A stretch of 64,000 bases of DNA from a bacterium (GTDB lineage: Bacteria > Pseudomonadota > Alphaproteobacteria > SP197), in NCBI GenBank assembly GCA_028821455.1, contig JAPPGE010000047.1:80161-144160 (forward strand). The letters are read 5' to 3'. The notes under the pieces were generated by a model. The model had not been told where the DNA came from. It searched no databases and saw only the letters and a program-made list of their open reading frames with translations. Position 1 is the stretch's first letter, and each line of letters begins with the position of its first letter. This document shows positions 27,468 to 34,594 of this stretch, piece by piece. A program made the position numbers and the translations under genes.

Positions 27468-28259
27468 ATGATCTTCTGGCACCATCTGGTCCCTGTTCTG
27501 CTGGTTCCGGCGGGCGTGCTGCCGTTTCTGGGCCGCTTCGAAAAGGGGTTGTACTTCTGGTGTGCCTTCGGAATGGCGGCGCTTGCCGCCACGGCGTGGA
27601 CAGCGGCCCAGTTCAGCGACTCCTGGTCCACCGGATTCGGGCCCGCGATCTGGCTGACGGTATCAGCCTGTCTGGTATTGTTCCTTGTCCTTTCGCTCCT
27701 GGTTCCGGAGTTCTGGCGGCTGGGGGCCATCCTCGGTCCCTGGATCCTCGTCATGGCGGTTCTGGCCCTGGCCTGGAACCAGGCAGAGGCGACCCGGTCT
27801 CCCGGGATCGATTCCGTCTCGGACTGGATCGGCCTTCACGTGATCCTGTCAGTCACCACCTACGTGTTTCTCACAATGGCGGCGATCGCAGGTTTCGCCG
27901 TCATTCTCCAGGAACGCTCACTCAAGCGCCGCACGCCGGGGCGGCTGACGCCATTGTTGCCGTCCCTGGCCGACTGTGAGCGACTCGAGTTCCGCCTGTT
28001 GGTGACAAGCGAGATCATCCTTGCCGCTGGAATCGCCACAGGGCTGGCGGCCACCTCGTCGGCGGATGCAATCACCGGCATGAACCACAAGATCGTCTTT
28101 ACAGCCGCCGCCTTCGCCGTCATTGCCATGCTTCTCGTAGCCCGCCAGCTCTGGGGAACACGGGGCCGCAGGGCGGCACGTCTGGTGTTGACCGGCTATC
28201 TCCTGATGACTCTCGCCTATCCCGGAGTCAAGTTCGTCACGGACGTCGTCATCGGATAG
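27468..28259 (+). CDS. CcsA/YpjD-like cytochrome c assembly family membrane protein
   Basis: A 263-residue integral membrane protein with about eight hydrophobic helices, starting at residues 1-20. HVILSVTTYVFLTMAAIAGFAVILQE and MNHKIVFTAAAFAVIAMLLVARQLWG match the CcsA/YpjD family, in which paired histidines handle heme in c-type cytochrome maturation. The conserved tryptophan-rich WWD loop of true CcsA/CcmC is not evident, so heme delivery is uncertain. It stands 78 bases before ntrY and could share its promoter. Translation start is the first ATG of the long frame. Confidence 0.72.
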   Translation: MIFWHHLVPVLLVPAGVLPFLGRFEKGLYFWCAFGMAALAATAWTAAQFSDSWSTGFGPAIWLTVSACLVLFLVLSLLVPEFWRLGAILGPWILVMAVLALAWNQAEATRSPGIDSVSDWIGLHVILSVTTYVFLTMAAIAGFAVILQERSLKRRTPGRLTPLLPSLADCERLEFRLLVTSEIILAAGIATGLAATSSADAITGMNHKIVFTAAAFAVIAMLLVARQLWGTRGRRAARLVLTGYLLMTLAYPGVKFVTDVVIG

Positions 28260-28337
28260 CCGCTGGCGGCAGGGTGCATGTCCGTGGCGGCGACTGTATG
28301 ATGGTCGGGGCTGCTTTCGGGGGCTCCACCTCAATCC

Positions 28338-30581
28338 ATGAGTCTCGAGACGACCGGCGGGCACTCCCCGGACAACCCGATCAGAGCGAAACTGCCCAGG
28401 CTGCTCGGCTGGTTCCGCAAGCCGACGGGACGGTGGTCACGCAGCCGGATCGTCAACGTGGCTCTTGCGGTGATGGCAGTGCTTTCCGGTCTTGCGACCT
28501 ACGGGGCACTTACAGGTTCGGGACCGTTCGAACCTGACCAGAACACCCTCATCGTTCTCCTGAACATCGATCTGGCTCTCCTCCTTGCCTTTGCCGTCAT
28601 CATCATCCGCCGCCTTGCGGACATGTGGTCGCAGCGCCGGGAGGGAATGACAGGTTCAAGACTGCAGGCACGACTGGTTGCCGCATTCGGTCTGGCGGCT
28701 ACCATTCCCGCCGTTCTCATCGGCGTGTCATCGGCCACCTTCTTCAACATGGGCATCGACTCCTGGTTCAATGAACGGGTTCAGACCGCCATTGCCCAGT
28801 CGACCAGAATTGCCGATGCCTACCTGGAAGAACACCGCATTGCCCTTGGGTCCGGCGCACTCGCGCTCGCCCGCGACTTCCATCTCTACGTTCCGAAGTC
28901 AGGCGGTAGCATGGAGGAGTTCACGTCCTACCTTGAGGAGCGCGCCAGCGTGAGAGGCATCTCCGAATGGGTCGTGTTGAGCAGTCTTGGCCAGATCATC
29001 ATGCAGGGTTCTCTTTCGACGGGTCTCGGCATGGAACCTCTCACGGCGCACGAGATTGAACGTGCCGACGCAGGTGACGCCGTCATTCTGAAATCAAGCG
29101 CCAGGGACAGGGTGCGCGCGCTCGTCAGCCTCAGTCGGGGCAGCACCTACCTGCTGGCGGGAAGCAGTGTCGACCCTGACGTCATCGAAAGCACCAGGAA
29201 GGTGTCTGCGGTCGCATCCTCCTACAGAAAACTCGCGCTGGAGCGAACCAGCCTGCAACTGACCTTCTCCCTCTTCTATGCCGTCGCCGCCCTTCTCCTG
29301 CTGTTCGTTGCAGTGTGGTTCGCGCTACAGCTTGCCTCTCGCCTGGTGGGCCCGGTCGTAGCACTGGCCAATGCTGCCGAGAAGATTCGCCAGGACGACC
29401 TTTCCGTGCGCGTGTCACTGAGTGGACGATCCGACGAAATCTCCTTGCTCGGCCAGGCCTTCAACCGCATGGCCGACCGGATCGCCGAGCAACGTCATGC
29501 CCTGATTGAGACCAACAAGGATCTCGAGGCTCGGAGGCGCTTCACTGAATCGGTCCTCTCCGGCGTCAGTGCGGGTGTCATCGGACTCGATGATGCCGGG
29601 ATTGTCGAACTGGTGAACCGCCGGGCGCTGGAACTGCTCAATGTGACCGAGAGCGATCTGGTCGGAGCGAGCCTCATCGACACCATGCCCGAGGCGGCCG
29701 GACTTCTCGTGGAGGCCATGAAGGCGCGTGCGGCATCGGGCAGCGTCAACCTCGAAAACGACGCCGGGTTGCGGCGGCTCTTCGTGCGTATCGGCAATGT
29801 CGCGGGTGAACCGGAGGGACACGTGCGACGGGGCGGGTTCGTGATGACCATCGATGACGTCACGCCGCTCGTGCTTGCACAGCGCAAGGCAGCGTGGAGT
29901 GACGTGGCACTGCGGGTGGCCCATGAAATCAAGAATCCGCTGACGCCCATCACGCTTTCCGCCGAGCGGCTGGAACGCAAGTTCGCAGGCGCCATCACCG
30001 AATCGCCCGAGGTGTTCCGGGAACTCACCGACACCATCAAGCGACAGGCGATGCACATGACCAATGTGGTCAACGAGTTCTCCCGCCACGCGCGGATGCC
30101 GATACTCATCATGTCTTCGGAAAGTGCGGTTGACATTGTCGAAAAGGCCATTCGGCTTCAGGAGATTTCCGACACCCGCGTCGTCTTCGAGCGCGTCTAT
30201 CCCGAGACCCCGCCGGTCGTGCATTGTGACGGGGACATGATCTGTGCCGCCATCTTCAACATCGTCAAGAACGCAGCGGAGGCCTTCCGCATGGACGATG
30301 TGGAGAGACAGGAGGGCGACGTCGTGAAGGTCACCATTGCGGAAGAGGGCGCATGGTGTGTTATCAGGATCGAGGACAATGGTCCGGGTTTTCCCGTGGA
30401 GCGCCCCGAGACACTCCTTGAACCGCATGAATCCCATGGCAAGGATGACGGCTACGGCCTCGGTCTGACGATTGCACGATCGACGGTCAGGGACCACGGT
30501 GGGGACCTCGTCTTGCAGAACAGGGAGGAAGGCGGTGCATCGGTGATCCTGTCGCTGCCTCTGGAACGGAACGACGGCTGA
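28338..30581 (+). CDS. ntrY: NtrY sensor histidine kinase
   Basis: A 747-residue membrane kinase. Membrane helices lie at about residues 39-60, 73-92 and 112-134, then an extracytoplasmic sensor segment and another helix (about 313-335). A HAMP region (LVGPVVALANAAEKIRQDDL), a PAS domain (about 395-500) and the kinase core follow. The phospho-accepting histidine is H529 in VAHEIKNPLTPI; the ATP-binding boxes are FNIVKNAAEAF, EDNGPGF and GYGLGLTIA. NtrY phosphorylates NtrX and has been linked to nitrogen and redox control. The stop overlaps the ntrX ATG by one base. The usual ntrB-ntrC pair is not upstream. Confidence 0.95.
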   Translation: MSLETTGGHSPDNPIRAKLPRLLGWFRKPTGRWSRSRIVNVALAVMAVLSGLATYGALTGSGPFEPDQNTLIVLLNIDLALLLAFAVIIIRRLADMWSQRREGMTGSRLQARLVAAFGLAATIPAVLIGVSSATFFNMGIDSWFNERVQTAIAQSTRIADAYLEEHRIALGSGALALARDFHLYVPKSGGSMEEFTSYLEERASVRGISEWVVLSSLGQIIMQGSLSTGLGMEPLTAHEIERADAGDAVILKSSARDRVRALVSLSRGSTYLLAGSSVDPDVIESTRKVSAVASSYRKLALERTSLQLTFSLFYAVAALLLLFVAVWFALQLASRLVGPVVALANAAEKIRQDDLSVRVSLSGRSDEISLLGQAFNRMADRIAEQRHALIETNKDLEARRRFTESVLSGVSAGVIGLDDAGIVELVNRRALELLNVTESDLVGASLIDTMPEAAGLLVEAMKARAASGSVNLENDAGLRRLFVRIGNVAGEPEGHVRRGGFVMTIDDVTPLVLAQRKAAWSDVALRVAHEIKNPLTPITLSAERLERKFAGAITESPEVFRELTDTIKRQAMHMTNVVNEFSRHARMPILIMSSESAVDIVEKAIRLQEISDTRVVFERVYPETPPVVHCDGDMICAAIFNIVKNAAEAFRMDDVERQEGDVVKVTIAEEGAWCVIRIEDNGPGFPVERPETLLEPHESHGKDDGYGLGLTIARSTVRDHGGDLVLQNREEGGASVILSLPLERNDG

Positions 30582-31981
30582 TGAAGTATGACATCCTCAT
30601 TGTTGATGACGAGCGCGACATCCGTCGCGCGCTGGCCGATGTTCTCGAGGATGAGGGCTATCAGGCACGCACAGCGTCCGATCCCGATTCCGCCGATGCC
30701 GAGATCGCTGCACAGGTGCCTTCCCTGTTGATCCTCGATATCTGGTATCGCGGGTCACGGCGCGATGGTGTCGACCTGCTGCGCGACTACGTCGCCCACC
30801 ATCCATTCATGCCGATCATCATGATCAGTGGTCACGGCACCATCACCACCGCTGTCAAGTGCACCAGGATCGGCGCCTACGACTTTATCGAGAAGCCCCT
30901 TCAGACCGACAAGGTGCTCCTGGTGGTCAAGCGGGCGCTCGACGAAGCACGACTGCGTCGCGAGAACGAGGAACTGCGGCGTTCCACCCGTGTTCTCGAC
31001 GATCTCGTCGGCGAGTCACGGGCGATGGTGCAGTTGCGCGAGGCCATTTCCCGGGTTGCGCCCACCGGCAGCAGAGTCCTGATCACGGGCCCTGCAGGTT
31101 CCGGCAAGGAACTCGTGGCACGGCATATTCACCGGCAGTCGCCACGCACAGGTGGGCCGTTCGTTGCCATCAATGCCGCAACGATGGAGCCCGAGAGGGT
31201 GGAGGAGGAGCTCTTCGGACGGGAAACCCGGACCTCACCCGGCGTACCGGTCATCACCCACGGTGTGTTCGAGCGCGCCAACGGAGGCACACTGTTCCTC
31301 GACAATGTTCCGGACATGCCGCTGGCCACGCAGGGCAAGATCCTGAGAGCTCTCCAGGAACAGGTGTTCACCAGGCTGGGTGGCGACACGCCGGTCAGGG
31401 CCGATGTGCGGGTCCTCACATCCGCGAGTGGCAACATCACCACAGCGGTGCAATCGGGTCACTTCCGCGAGGATCTCTACTACCGTCTGAATGTCGTGTC
31501 GATCGATGTCCCGCCACTTTCGGAAAGACGGGAAGATGTGGCGTTGCTGTCGAAGTACTTCATCAGGCGAGCCGTGCGTCAGCAGGGTCTCTGCGCCCGG
31601 ACACTGACGGGCGATGCCGAGATGGCCCTGTTGATGGCCAACTGGCCTGGCAATGTGCGCCAGTTGCGCAATGTGATCGAATCCCTGCTGATCATGACTC
31701 CGGAAGGCAAGGACGGGGCAATCACGGTGGATATGCTGCCCGGCGAAGTGAGGCAGACCAGCCCGGCCCCGGTCCTGTTTCACGATTCGAGCGAGGTGAT
31801 GTCCCTTGGACTGCGCGAGGCAAGGGCGGCATTCGAACGCAAGTACCTGTTGACCCAGCTGGCGCGTTTCGGCAACAACATTTCGCGGACGGCCGCGGCG
31901 GTCGGCATGGAACGGTCCGCGTTGCACCGGAAACTGAGAGCGCTGGGTGTCAGCGTCACCGAACGCGACGCCGGAGTCTGA
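30581..31981 (+). CDS. ntrX: NtrX-type response regulator with degenerate AAA+ domain
   Basis: This 466-residue regulator has a receiver domain (phospho-accepting D53 in LILDIWYRGSRRDG), an AAA+ domain and a Fis-type DNA-binding helix-turn-helix (NNISRTAAAVGMERSALHRKL). The Walker A loop G170-PAGSGKE is intact. The GAFTGA loop that contacts sigma-54 is absent, as in other NtrX proteins. Unusually, Walker B reads L-F-L-D241-N242 instead of D-E, and the sensor I segment is TSAS-G-N (S283) where ATN is usual. Arginine-finger region FREDLYYRLN remains. The protein may bind ATP but probably hydrolyses it poorly, and is likely to act as a phospho-dependent DNA-binding factor. Confidence 0.93.
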   Translation: MKYDILIVDDERDIRRALADVLEDEGYQARTASDPDSADAEIAAQVPSLLILDIWYRGSRRDGVDLLRDYVAHHPFMPIIMISGHGTITTAVKCTRIGAYDFIEKPLQTDKVLLVVKRALDEARLRRENEELRRSTRVLDDLVGESRAMVQLREAISRVAPTGSRVLITGPAGSGKELVARHIHRQSPRTGGPFVAINAATMEPERVEEELFGRETRTSPGVPVITHGVFERANGGTLFLDNVPDMPLATQGKILRALQEQVFTRLGGDTPVRADVRVLTSASGNITTAVQSGHFREDLYYRLNVVSIDVPPLSERREDVALLSKYFIRRAVRQQGLCARTLTGDAEMALLMANWPGNVRQLRNVIESLLIMTPEGKDGAITVDMLPGEVRQTSPAPVLFHDSSEVMSLGLREARAAFERKYLLTQLARFGNNISRTAAAVGMERSALHRKLRALGVSVTERDAGV

Positions 31982-31986
31982 GTGCC

Positions 31987-33363
31987 ATGCGTGTGATTGT
32001 CTGTGGAGCCGGACAGGTCGGCTACAACATTGCCCGTAGACTGGCGGAGGAAGCCAACGACGTCACGGTGATCGACAATGATGCCTCCCGCATCGCCAGA
32101 GTGACGGAGAACATTGACGCGAAAGGACTGGTGGGATTTGCTGCCCATCCGCCGGTACTCCAGCGCGCCGGCGCCGAAGATGCAGACATGCTGATTGCCG
32201 TCACCTACGCCGACGAAGTCAACATGATTGCCTGCCAGGTGGCGCATTCCATCTTCGAAGTACCCACAAAAATCGCCCGGGTGCGTCACCAGTCCTATCT
32301 CGATCTCGCGTGGAGCAATCTCTACAGCCGGGATCACATGCCCATCAACGTCATCATCTCGCCGGAAATTGAAGTGGGACGCGCCATCATCAGGCGTCTC
32401 GAGGTACCGGGCGCAATCGATATCGTGCCGATGGCCGATGACCGGGTGCGCGCCATTGCCGTGCGATGCCATGCCGATTGCCCAATCCTTGACACGCCCC
32501 TTGAGGAACTCACGGAACTCTTCCCCAACCTCAAGGTCTTTGTTGTCGGCATCGTGCGCCATGGCGAACTGTTCATTCCCACGGGCCGGACGGAAATGCG
32601 CGCTGGGGATGTCGTCTACTTCGTCACCTCAAGCGACCACATGCACCGGTCGATGTCCGTCTTTGGCCATGAGGAACCGGAAGCCCGCCGGGTGATCATA
32701 GTAGGCGGCGGCAACATCGGCCTCTACGTTGCGCGCGAGATGGAAAAGCACCATGCCGAAGTGCGTTGCAAGGTCATCGAGATCAATGAGAGCCGGGCCC
32801 GTGAGGTCGCCGATCAGTTGATACGAACGACGGTGCTGCTTGGTGATGCGCTGGAACGCAAGATCCTTGAGGAAGCCGGCGCCGGGGATGTCGAAACAGT
32901 GGTTGCCGTTTCCAATGATGACGAGGTCAACATTCTCTCGTCGCTCCTCGCCAAGAGGCTTGGTGCAAAACGGGCCATTACACTGGTCAATTCGGAGAGT
33001 TACGACCCCCTGGTCGAGGATCTTGGTGTCGATTCTGTGGTCAATCCCAGGGGTTCCACGGTCTCGACGATCCTCCAGCACATTCGCCGCGGCCGCGTTC
33101 GCAGCGTCTACAGCATTCACGAGGGCGCCGGTGAGTTCATAGAGGCCGAAGCCCTTGAGACAACCCGGATCACGAACCGGAAAATTCGCGACATTCACCT
33201 CGCCAGAGGCATCCTCATCGCCGCTCTCGTACGCAGTCAGGAAGTCATCGTTCCCCACGGTGACACGCGGATCCAGGTCGGTGACCGGGTGGTTCTCTTC
33301 GCCAGCACCAACCTGATGAGCAAGGTCGAGAAACTCCTCTCCGTGGGCCTCGAGTTCTTCTGA
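31987..33363 (+). CDS. trkA: Trk potassium uptake regulator TrkA
   Basis: A 458-residue cytoplasmic gating protein with two RCK/KTN units. Each has an NAD-binding Rossmann motif: CGAGQVGYNIA near residue 5 and VGGGNIGLYVA near residue 240, each followed by a TrkA_C domain. It binds TrkH/TrkG-type channels; none is encoded here. The start at 31987 is 5 bases after ntrX. A longer overlapping frame upstream is a shadow of ntrX. The ntrX-trkA order is conserved in alphaproteobacteria. Confidence 0.95.
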   Translation: MRVIVCGAGQVGYNIARRLAEEANDVTVIDNDASRIARVTENIDAKGLVGFAAHPPVLQRAGAEDADMLIAVTYADEVNMIACQVAHSIFEVPTKIARVRHQSYLDLAWSNLYSRDHMPINVIISPEIEVGRAIIRRLEVPGAIDIVPMADDRVRAIAVRCHADCPILDTPLEELTELFPNLKVFVVGIVRHGELFIPTGRTEMRAGDVVYFVTSSDHMHRSMSVFGHEEPEARRVIIVGGGNIGLYVAREMEKHHAEVRCKVIEINESRAREVADQLIRTTVLLGDALERKILEEAGAGDVETVVAVSNDDEVNILSSLLAKRLGAKRAITLVNSESYDPLVEDLGVDSVVNPRGSTVSTILQHIRRGRVRSVYSIHEGAGEFIEAEALETTRITNRKIRDIHLARGILIAALVRSQEVIVPHGDTRIQVGDRVVLFASTNLMSKVEKLLSVGLEFF

Positions 33364-33364
33364 G

Positions 33365-34240
33365 ATGTCGCGCATCGCCTATGTAAATGGCCGGTACTGC
33401 GCCCATTCCCGGGCCAGTGTTCATATCGATGACCGCGCCCACACCTTTGCCGACGGAGTCTACGAAGTCATACTCGTGGTCAACCACCATCTGATCGACC
33501 TTGACGATCATTTCCGGCGCCTGAATCGCTCGCTCGTCGAACTCGACATTCCCCGACCGATGACAGGGCGCGTTCTGACCCACATCATGAATCGCACGAT
33601 CCACCTGAACAGGGTGGTCGACGGTATCGTCTATCTCCAGATCAGCCGAGGCACGGCGCCTCGCAACCACGTCTTCGACAACGCGTCCCTCGCCCCGGGC
33701 GTGGTGTGCACGGCACGGCGCCTGACGTTGCCCGCGACGTCGCGTGACGTTTCAGGGGTCGAGGTCATCACGCTCCCCGACACGCGCTGGGCACGCGTCG
33801 ACATCAAGAGCGTCTCCCTTCTTCCCAATGTGCTGGCCCGTACAAGGGCAGCCGGGCAGGGAGCCTACGAGGCCTGGCTCGTCGACGGGGACGGACTTGT
33901 GACAGAGTGCGCCGCCTCCAATGCCTGGATCGTTGATTCCGGCGGGCGTCTTGTGACACGGCCGGTCGCGGACGGGATCCTGCGAGGCATTACCCGCGAG
34001 CGGTTGATGGCTCTGGCTCGCGAGTTGTCAATCGAGGTTGTCGAGCGTCCTTTCAGCGTGGCCGAGGCGAAGGAGGCCCGTGAAGCCTTCCTGACCAGTA
34101 CCACTTCCCTGGTCAAGGCTGTTTCGCGCATCGATGAGACCGTCATCGGCAACGGCCATCCCGGCCATGTGACCTGCCGGTTGCTCGATGCCTACCTCGA
34201 CTTCGCGCGCCGGCCGGCGCTGCCGCGCGGGGTTTCCTGA
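33365..34240 (+). CDS. dat: D-amino-acid aminotransferase, class IV PLP enzyme
   Basis: A 291-residue fold-type IV transaminase. The PLP lysine is K148 in DIKSVSLLPNVLA; RGTAPRNH (residues 95-102) is the substrate-gate motif of D-alanine aminotransferases, and TSTTSLVKAVSRIDE near the C-terminus binds the cofactor phosphate. Dat makes D-glutamate or D-alanine for peptidoglycan from 2-oxo acids. Branched-chain aminotransferase is the alternative but the RGTAPR motif argues for Dat. It starts 2 bases after the trkA stop. Confidence 0.9.
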   Translation: MSRIAYVNGRYCAHSRASVHIDDRAHTFADGVYEVILVVNHHLIDLDDHFRRLNRSLVELDIPRPMTGRVLTHIMNRTIHLNRVVDGIVYLQISRGTAPRNHVFDNASLAPGVVCTARRLTLPATSRDVSGVEVITLPDTRWARVDIKSVSLLPNVLARTRAAGQGAYEAWLVDGDGLVTECAASNAWIVDSGGRLVTRPVADGILRGITRERLMALARELSIEVVERPFSVAEAKEAREAFLTSTTSLVKAVSRIDETVIGNGHPGHVTCRLLDAYLDFARRPALPRGVS

Positions 34241-34318: not shown

Positions 34319-34594
34319 ATGCGGGATACCGGTATCATGGCACAGACGAGACAGCAGAACCTGCAGGACACGTTCCTCAATGCCGTTCGCAAATCGAAGA
34401 CTCCGGTGACGGTCTATCTCGTGAACGGCGTGAAACTGCAGGGCACCATCACCTGGTTTGACAACTTCTGCCTGCTCCTGCGACGGGACGGCCATTCGCA
34501 GCTCATCTACAAGCACGCGGTGTCGACCGTCATGCCCGAGGGATTGGTGAACCTGCAGCTCGCCGGTGAAGGAGAGACGCGCGACGATGCCTGA
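34319..34594 (+). CDS. hfq: RNA chaperone Hfq
   Basis: A short hexameric RNA chaperone (91 residues from 34319) that helps small RNAs pair with messages. The Sm1 region [31 protein letters not shown] and the Sm2 motif [10 protein letters not shown] are intact, with a short tail. ATG 34319 has AAAGGA five bases before it and is chosen; the family-typical start [10 protein letters not shown] lies six codons in, at 34337, with a weaker site. The hflX start lies inside the last codons of hfq. Confidence 0.96.

Follow-up and report, generated by a model that had tools for sequence, protein, structure and literature searches.

The 64,000-nucleotide stretch of DNA analyzed here (the window; positions 80,161 to 144,160 of contig JAPPGE010000047.1, assembly GCA_028821455.1) belongs to an alphaproteobacterium of the order SP197. 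It carries ntrX within a cluster that reads ispDF (minus strand), ccsA-like gene, ntrY, ntrX, trkA, D-amino-acid transaminase gene, and two genes that we take, from their sequences, to be hfq and hflX (Table 1). This work concerns the NtrX protein, in which an asparagine (N242) occupies the place of the catalytic glutamate of the Walker B motif. By analogy with related proteins, the NtrX of the order probably uses ATP as a bound switch and not as fuel.

Table 1. Coordinates of the genes and ntrX codons discussed in the text, in positions of the window. Fractions of 54 refer to related loci, those of 196 to the NtrX of a class sample, and those of 16 to the genomes of the order.
Feature	Position	Strand	Evidence and remarks
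Cytochrome c assembly (CcsA-like) gene	27468..28259	+	Directly before ntrY; Pfam Cytochrom_C_asm
ntrY, membrane sensor histidine kinase	28338..30581	+	1-base overlap with ntrX start; Pfam NtrY_N, HAMP, PAS, HisKA, HATPase_c
ntrX	30581..31981	+	466 amino acids; receiver, AAA+, Fis-type HTH; Pfam Response_reg, Sigma54_activat, AAA_lid_14, HTH_8
D53 codon, receiver phosphoacceptor	30737..30739	+	Translation; D in 291/292 aligned rows, 1 gap
Walker A GPAGSGK, residues 170-176	31088..31108	+	K176 in 16/16
N242 codon AAT, in place of Walker B catalytic Glu	31304..31306	+	Glu in 174/196, 0/16 in the order
S283 codon AGT, sensor I position	31427..31429	+	Ordinary; Asn in only 70/196
R296 to R302 codons, arginine-finger region	31466..31486	+	R296, D298, R302 in 16/16
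R360 codon, sensor II arginine	31658..31660	+	16/16
trkA	31987..33363	+	Next after ntrX; Pfam TrkA_N, TrkA_C; TrkA match in 24/54
D-amino-acid transaminase gene	33365..34240	+	NF005209, 363.5 bits vs cut-off 320; match in 32/54
hfq (presumed)	34319..34594	+	Open reading frame and translation; match in 49/54

The ntrX product scores 613.4 bits against the NCBIfam model NF051870, above the family cut-off of 600. It has the features that define an NtrX, namely a receiver domain with its phosphoacceptor aspartate (in the context LDIW), an AAA+ domain, and a Fis-type helix-turn-helix (HTH), and its gene lies directly after ntrY. The closest solved relative, both by sequence and by fold, is the NtrX of Brucella abortus (5m7n, 5m7o, 5m7p), which has the same domain order, lacks the GAFTGA motif as well, and shares about 52% identity in the structural match. 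It differs from the window protein by having LDE at Walker B (LDN in the window), SSTA at sensor I, and a loop four residues shorter at the place of GAFTGA. An AlphaFold2 model (mean predicted local distance difference test score, pLDDT, 82; predicted template modelling score, pTM, 0.56) confirms the fold, although such a model cannot judge catalysis. The window reading frame is a genuine NtrX, ordinary in fold, partner, and locus, and the NtrX of the order is a naturally occurring variant of an already known protein and does not amount to a new system.

The translation reads LFLDN at Walker B and TSAS at sensor I, FREDLYYRL spans R296 and R302, and the GAFTGA motif is absent, with ETRTSPGVPVITHG in its place. 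In an alignment with three solved NtrC-family proteins, N242 falls on the E of LDE. The second acid of Walker B, a glutamate in active AAA+ ATPases, is thus an asparagine in the window protein. The first-pass annotation of this DNA had described an NtrX with D53, N242, S283, an intact Walker A and arginine-finger region, and no GAFTGA, and its coordinates, frame, and residues were right.

Replacement of the Walker B glutamate

The conservation of these residues was assessed in a class sample of 240 genomes, of which 201 have a match to NF051870 at E <= 1e-100. Five of these were dropped because the frame contained a stop (one), was partial (one), or carried GAFTGA (three), leaving 196 usable NtrX, three of which belong to the order of the window. 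As a control we used 70 GAFTGA-bearing NtrC-type proteins from the fetched loci, which were picked by motif and come mostly from other genomes than the 196. Position 242 is a glutamate in 174 of the NtrX of the class sample and in all 70 GAFTGA-bearing proteins, which also keep Lys, Asn, Asp, and three Arg at the other ATP sites. At sensor I, asparagine is the minority state in NtrX (70/196), and the GAFTGA-bearing proteins have His in 44 cases and Asn in 26. By these counts, N242 is unusual, beyond chance, and S283 is unremarkable. Hence, the earlier claim that both water-polarising residues are lost stands for the glutamate, whereas S283 is ordinary, and we rejected it as a second catalytic lesion because asparagine is the minority state in both sets. 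Since only 26 of the 70 GAFTGA-bearing proteins have this asparagine, variation at sensor I is ordinary even in proteins whose ATPase is expected to work, while loss of the glutamate is a feature of the GAFTGA-less paralogue. The 22 losses among 196 NtrX against none among the 70 control proteins suggest that strict selection for hydrolysis operates chiefly in the sigma-54-type paralogue, although the two genome sets differ and the control was picked by its motif.

The first-pass annotation had proposed an alignment of NtrX orthologues of the order. This alignment gives 12 Asn, 4 Gln, and no Glu at position 242 in the 16 genomes of the order, all of which have an NtrX. The trait is therefore not peculiar to the window genome and, judged by this distribution, the loss of the glutamate is wider and older than first thought. 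Outside the order, the glutamate is found in 228 of 235 NtrX rows (97%) with more than 45% identity; rows L032, L036-L038, L124, and L305 were left out of this set, in which one species may count twice and from which the identity cut drops those NtrX that are most degenerate. At 116 positions these rows have one residue at a frequency of at least 95%, and position 242 is the sole one of them to be altered in all 16 genomes of the order. A second criterion also returned it as the sole order-specific position of 466, and gave 0 and 1 positions in two other clades. The residues K176, N198, D241, R296, D298, R302, and R360 are intact in the 16 genomes.

The codon for residue 242 is AAT in the window and AAC in the three relatives whose NtrX is 94-95% identical; elsewhere in the order it is AAC or AAT in the Asn genomes and CAG in the Gln group. 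Because AAT is two base changes away from GAA and GAG, a single sequencing error cannot explain N242. The window does come from a draft genome of 104 contigs, but an error of sequencing or assembly at this codon is already refuted by the finding of an amide in all 16 genomes (12 with Asn, 4 with Gln) and by the use of both AAT and AAC, and we give it practically no credence. The records L036, L037, and L038 agree, though they are possibly the same assemblies as others counted.

In a quick 78-row tree from which column 242 had been removed, a branch with a Shimodaira-Hasegawa-like approximate likelihood ratio test (SH-aLRT) value of 85 sets the order apart; the Gln genera are basal, with the Asn genera nested. 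The order also holds together, with one change, in a second quick tree of 60 rows. The replacement would date back to the ancestor of the order, and the simplest course is a single origin, as Glu to Gln followed by Gln to Asn.

Elsewhere in the class, the glutamate is lost along with at least one further core residue in 14 rows, which look like cases of decay. The glutamate alone is changed in 21 rows, which are the 16 of the order and one row in each of five other families: G192 (N), G220 (Q), G092 (H), G242 (Q), and G042 (H). The independence of these five is approximate, given that several sit on long branches and that G220 adjoins another Glu-less row. Row G242 stands beside the order in the 78-row tree (SH-aLRT 84), but this tree omits row G139, an E-bearing member of its own family with which it pairs, so that its Gln should be counted separately from that of the order. 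Separately, several NtrX among the class genomes L161-L171 and L275-L310, many of them from genomes below 2 Mb, have scattered changes at Walker A, Walker B, and arginine-finger positions but retain the receiver Asp, and look like cases in which the ATPase has truly decayed.

Recurrent changes of this kind are what one would expect under neutral drift, where NtrX never needs hydrolysis, the glutamate is free to change, and the Asn or Gln of the order has no regulatory effect. In a 209-row NtrX tree, 15 changes between presence and absence of Glu are required, or 7 if only otherwise intact sites count as lost; two of the 7 appear to fall to the order, which this tree splits. The lack of GAFTGA in NtrX and the absence of losses in the 70 GAFTGA-bearing proteins, even if these were chosen for a working motif, go in the same direction. 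However, a residue kept in 97% of the rows outside the order and in 174 of 196 in the class sample is not free, and position 242 stays an amide in all genomes of the order, never a Glu. We regard drift as a possible, if doubtful, explanation.

Sigma-54, NtrB, and NtrC in the order, and selection on NtrX

The window genome (98.6% complete) has no match to the sigma-54 domains PF04552 or PF00309. Neither the GAFTGA motif nor sigma-54 in the cell, the two marks of a sigma-54 activator (bacterial enhancer-binding protein, bEBP), was thus found. NtrX is the only protein of this activator family in the genome; four weaker PF00158 matches sit in three open reading frames (ORFs), two encoding Clp-type ATPases and one an ATP-binding cassette (ABC) transporter. 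The gene rpoN is present in 12 of the 16 genomes of the order and absent from the window genome and its three close relatives, and in these four the NtrX search yields no second full-length relative. A GAFTGA-bearing NtrC-type protein occurs in 11 of the 12 rpoN-bearing genomes, and there are pieces of one in the twelfth. With the NtrB model, whose cut-off of 240 no genome of the order passes, scores of 172-204 bits are reached in 11 rpoN-bearing genomes (in ten of these beside the NtrC-type match), the twelfth has only weaker or fragmentary matches, and the four rpoN-less genomes reach at most 78 bits. From these matches, the four-genome clade of the window is concluded to have lost rpoN, ntrB, and ntrC. 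The same four genomes carry G432N and F440A at otherwise near-invariant HTH positions of NtrX, a hint of a changed DNA preference after the loss of NtrC.

The loss of rpoN and the lack of strong NtrB and NtrC matches in this clade could suggest that the AAA+ domain is dying after the loss of sigma-54, with N242 and S283 as early damage. Raw counts in the class sample do tie the two losses, since the glutamate is missing in 11 of 40 rpoN-less against 11 of 156 rpoN-bearing genomes (Fisher p 9e-4), the rpoN-less set being one made by comparing match lists and including genomes less than 90% complete. Yet, the link is not significant in phylogenetically independent pairs (median p 0.5, range 0.125-1), of which few are informative. 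Furthermore, the 12 rpoN-bearing relatives in the order all lack the glutamate too, so its loss predates that of rpoN, a timing that largely refutes decay. We rejected a loss of the glutamate as the result of the loss of rpoN on these two grounds.

Rates of evolution also speak to this matter. The ratio of non-synonymous to synonymous substitution rates (dN/dS) in the clade of the window is 0.070 in the AAA+ core, 0.066 in the receiver, 0.077 in the lid, and 0 in the HTH. With constraint on the AAA+ core equal to that on the receiver, the ATP pocket is, by this measure, maintained and not decaying. In its intact ATP-site residues and an AAA+ core under purifying selection, the protein agrees with what would be expected of an ATP-binding, non-hydrolysing sigma-70 regulator of the type represented by the NtrC of Rhodobacter capsulatus. 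The clade of the window does have dN/dS values above three of four sister pairs and a long stem (0.88 changes per column in the NtrX tree). However, the ratios of own-sister to sister-sister divergence are 2.49 for NtrX, 2.65 for NtrY, 2.53 for TrkA, and 2.05 for HflX, and those of own-far to sister-far divergence 1.44, 1.63, 1.43, and 1.19, respectively. The long stem is therefore matched by TrkA and largely by HflX, and we rejected an acceleration specific to NtrX after the loss of ntrBC. Altogether, decay of the domain seems very improbable.

ATP as a probable ligand of NtrX

We think it fairly probable that this is an ordinary NtrX whose AAA+ domain now binds nucleotide but turns it over slowly or not at all, that it acts as a non-sigma-54 regulator, and that the replacement took place in the ancestor of the order. 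NtrY would phosphorylate D53, as expected from the pairing of the genes and the conservation of this residue, and the AAA+ domain would bind ATP in its intact pocket, in line with the Brucella NtrX, crystallised with ATP and with ADP according to the titles of 5m7n and 5m7p. N242 would make hydrolysis very slow, as in PspF E108Q, and the ATP-bound conformation or oligomer would thus be long-lived. Since rpoN is absent, the Fis-type HTH would work on promoters of a non-sigma-54 RNA polymerase. The replacement of the glutamate would precede the loss of rpoN, ntrB, and ntrC in the clade of the window. The most likely function is regulation at non-sigma-54 promoters by a DNA-binding protein that has ATP as its ligand and is gated by phosphorylation.

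PspF has no receiver domain. Its E108Q variant resembles the NtrX of the order in having an amide for the catalytic glutamate while the switch Asn and the arginine fingers are intact (PMC4132715). It is described as having less than 1% of the ATPase activity, binding ATP 30-fold more tightly, and forming constitutive hexamers without nucleotide, and its switch pair is engaged whatever the nucleotide state (PMC4132715). The Q at 108 pairs with N64 of PspF. The variant differs in being laboratory-made and in carrying Q, not N, and PspF has GAFTGA and acts on sigma-54; residue 242 was equated with E108 by motif position, not by alignment. A Walker B mutant of NtrC1 is also recorded in an ATP-bound state, by the title of 3m0e. 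Nucleotide binding without turnover, as put forward in the first-pass annotation, is thus upheld as far as the binding residues are kept and low turnover is the natural prediction from PspF E108Q, but not in the part that leaned on sensor I. Its further proposal that control rests on phosphorylation and dimerisation alone does not agree with our results: as the AAA+ core is under purifying selection and the ATP site is intact in 16 of 16 genomes, bound ATP is suggested to still matter in the NtrX of the order.

Two NtrC-family proteins that lack GAFTGA and act at sigma-70 promoters offer parallels. In the NtrC of R. capsulatus, the reported requirement is for binding of ATP and not for its hydrolysis (as cited in PMC10274813), although this protein is an NtrC, not an NtrX. 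VpsR of Vibrio cholerae (printed VspR in PMC10274813) matches the NtrX model by fold and is reported there to require neither ATP nor phosphorylation; unlike NtrX, it binds cyclic di-GMP (c-di-GMP), as stated in PDB titles.

Some turnover could nevertheless be kept, with a nearby acid such as D246 or N242 itself giving a slow hydrolysis that serves as a timer. D246 is close, in LDNVPDM, the remaining residues that were checked, catalytic and inter-subunit, show no change, and PspF E108A, E108D, and E108Q are described with reduced, not zero, ATPase (PMC4132715). However, the activity of E108Q is below 1% of the wild type, and most E-bearing NtrX likewise have an acid at position 246, which is thus no new replacement. 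We consider such a timer improbable.

Several points weigh against a nucleotide-binding module with little turnover that arose once in the order. Most NtrX retain the glutamate, and turnover may be important in NtrX generally. The NtrC of Caulobacter lacks GAFTGA too and depends on the Asp of its Walker B motif (PMC10274813). The substitution in PspF is Q, and "E108N" is absent from PMC4132715. The 209-row FastTree tree splits the order and needs two changes, and a single origin of the replacement is weakly supported by the trees. Finally, the dN/dS over all codons is 0.063 in the clade of the window, against 0.025, 0.028, 0.020, and 0.092 in the four sister pairs, and that of the AAA+ core is 0.070 against 0.010, 0.024, 0.032, and 0.100; the clade exceeds three of these pairs, in receiver and AAA+ alike, which leaves room for some general relaxation. 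Some of the dS values lie above 1 and are rough.

As to whether Asn and Gln were selected or drifted in, the constant amide and the intact pocket favor selection, and the repeated loss in NtrX favors tolerance. In a bolder form, which we hold to be unlikely, the whole order would have fixed the equivalent of an ATP trap under selection, first with Gln and then with Asn, the AAA+ ring being a permanently ATP-locked scaffold for a sigma-70-type regulator, and the same Glu-only change (N, Q, or H, with the rest intact) would have arisen anew in as many as five further families of the class sample. The order is a natural experiment, with 12 genomes that have sigma-54, 4 that have neither sigma-54 nor an NtrC-type protein, and a Walker B amide in all 16, and its NtrX makes the idea of ATP as ligand, not fuel, directly testable. 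A literature search on NtrX and ATP hydrolysis, ATPase, or Walker B, whose scope covered few subscription journals, returned no work treating a replaced Walker B glutamate, as judged by titles and the beginnings of abstracts.

Observations at the locus

Close-relative searches gave no viral relative, and the plasmid matches are all below 60% identity (the best, in Azospirillum, at 55%); both a viral and a plasmid origin were rejected. The HTH part of ntrX (31814-31951) encodes an identical protein throughout the clade of the window, and its dS is 0.18, compared with 0.47-0.48 in the receiver and AAA+ core. This possibly reflects a constraint on DNA or RNA before trkA, although the stretch is short and the value may be due to chance. 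The trkA frame is open upstream across most of ntrX, and an ORF of 834 amino acids (30859-33363, plus strand) spans both genes; its trkA part alone was compared with protein families.

An NtrC-type frame precedes ntrY in at least 46 of 54 related loci, and none does so at the window locus. Among the 12 commonest arrangements, which were the ones compared and cover 48 of the 54 loci, the order CcsA, NtrC-type, NtrY is found in at least 6 of the 54; where a relative has both the CcsA-like gene and ntrY, they are separated by an NtrC-type frame. Relative to these loci, ntrBC is missing between the ccsA-like gene and ntrY (27468-28338) and rpoN is absent genome-wide, in the window as in its close relatives. 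These four genomes are a compact case in which the sigma-54 nitrogen circuit has been lost and NtrYX kept.

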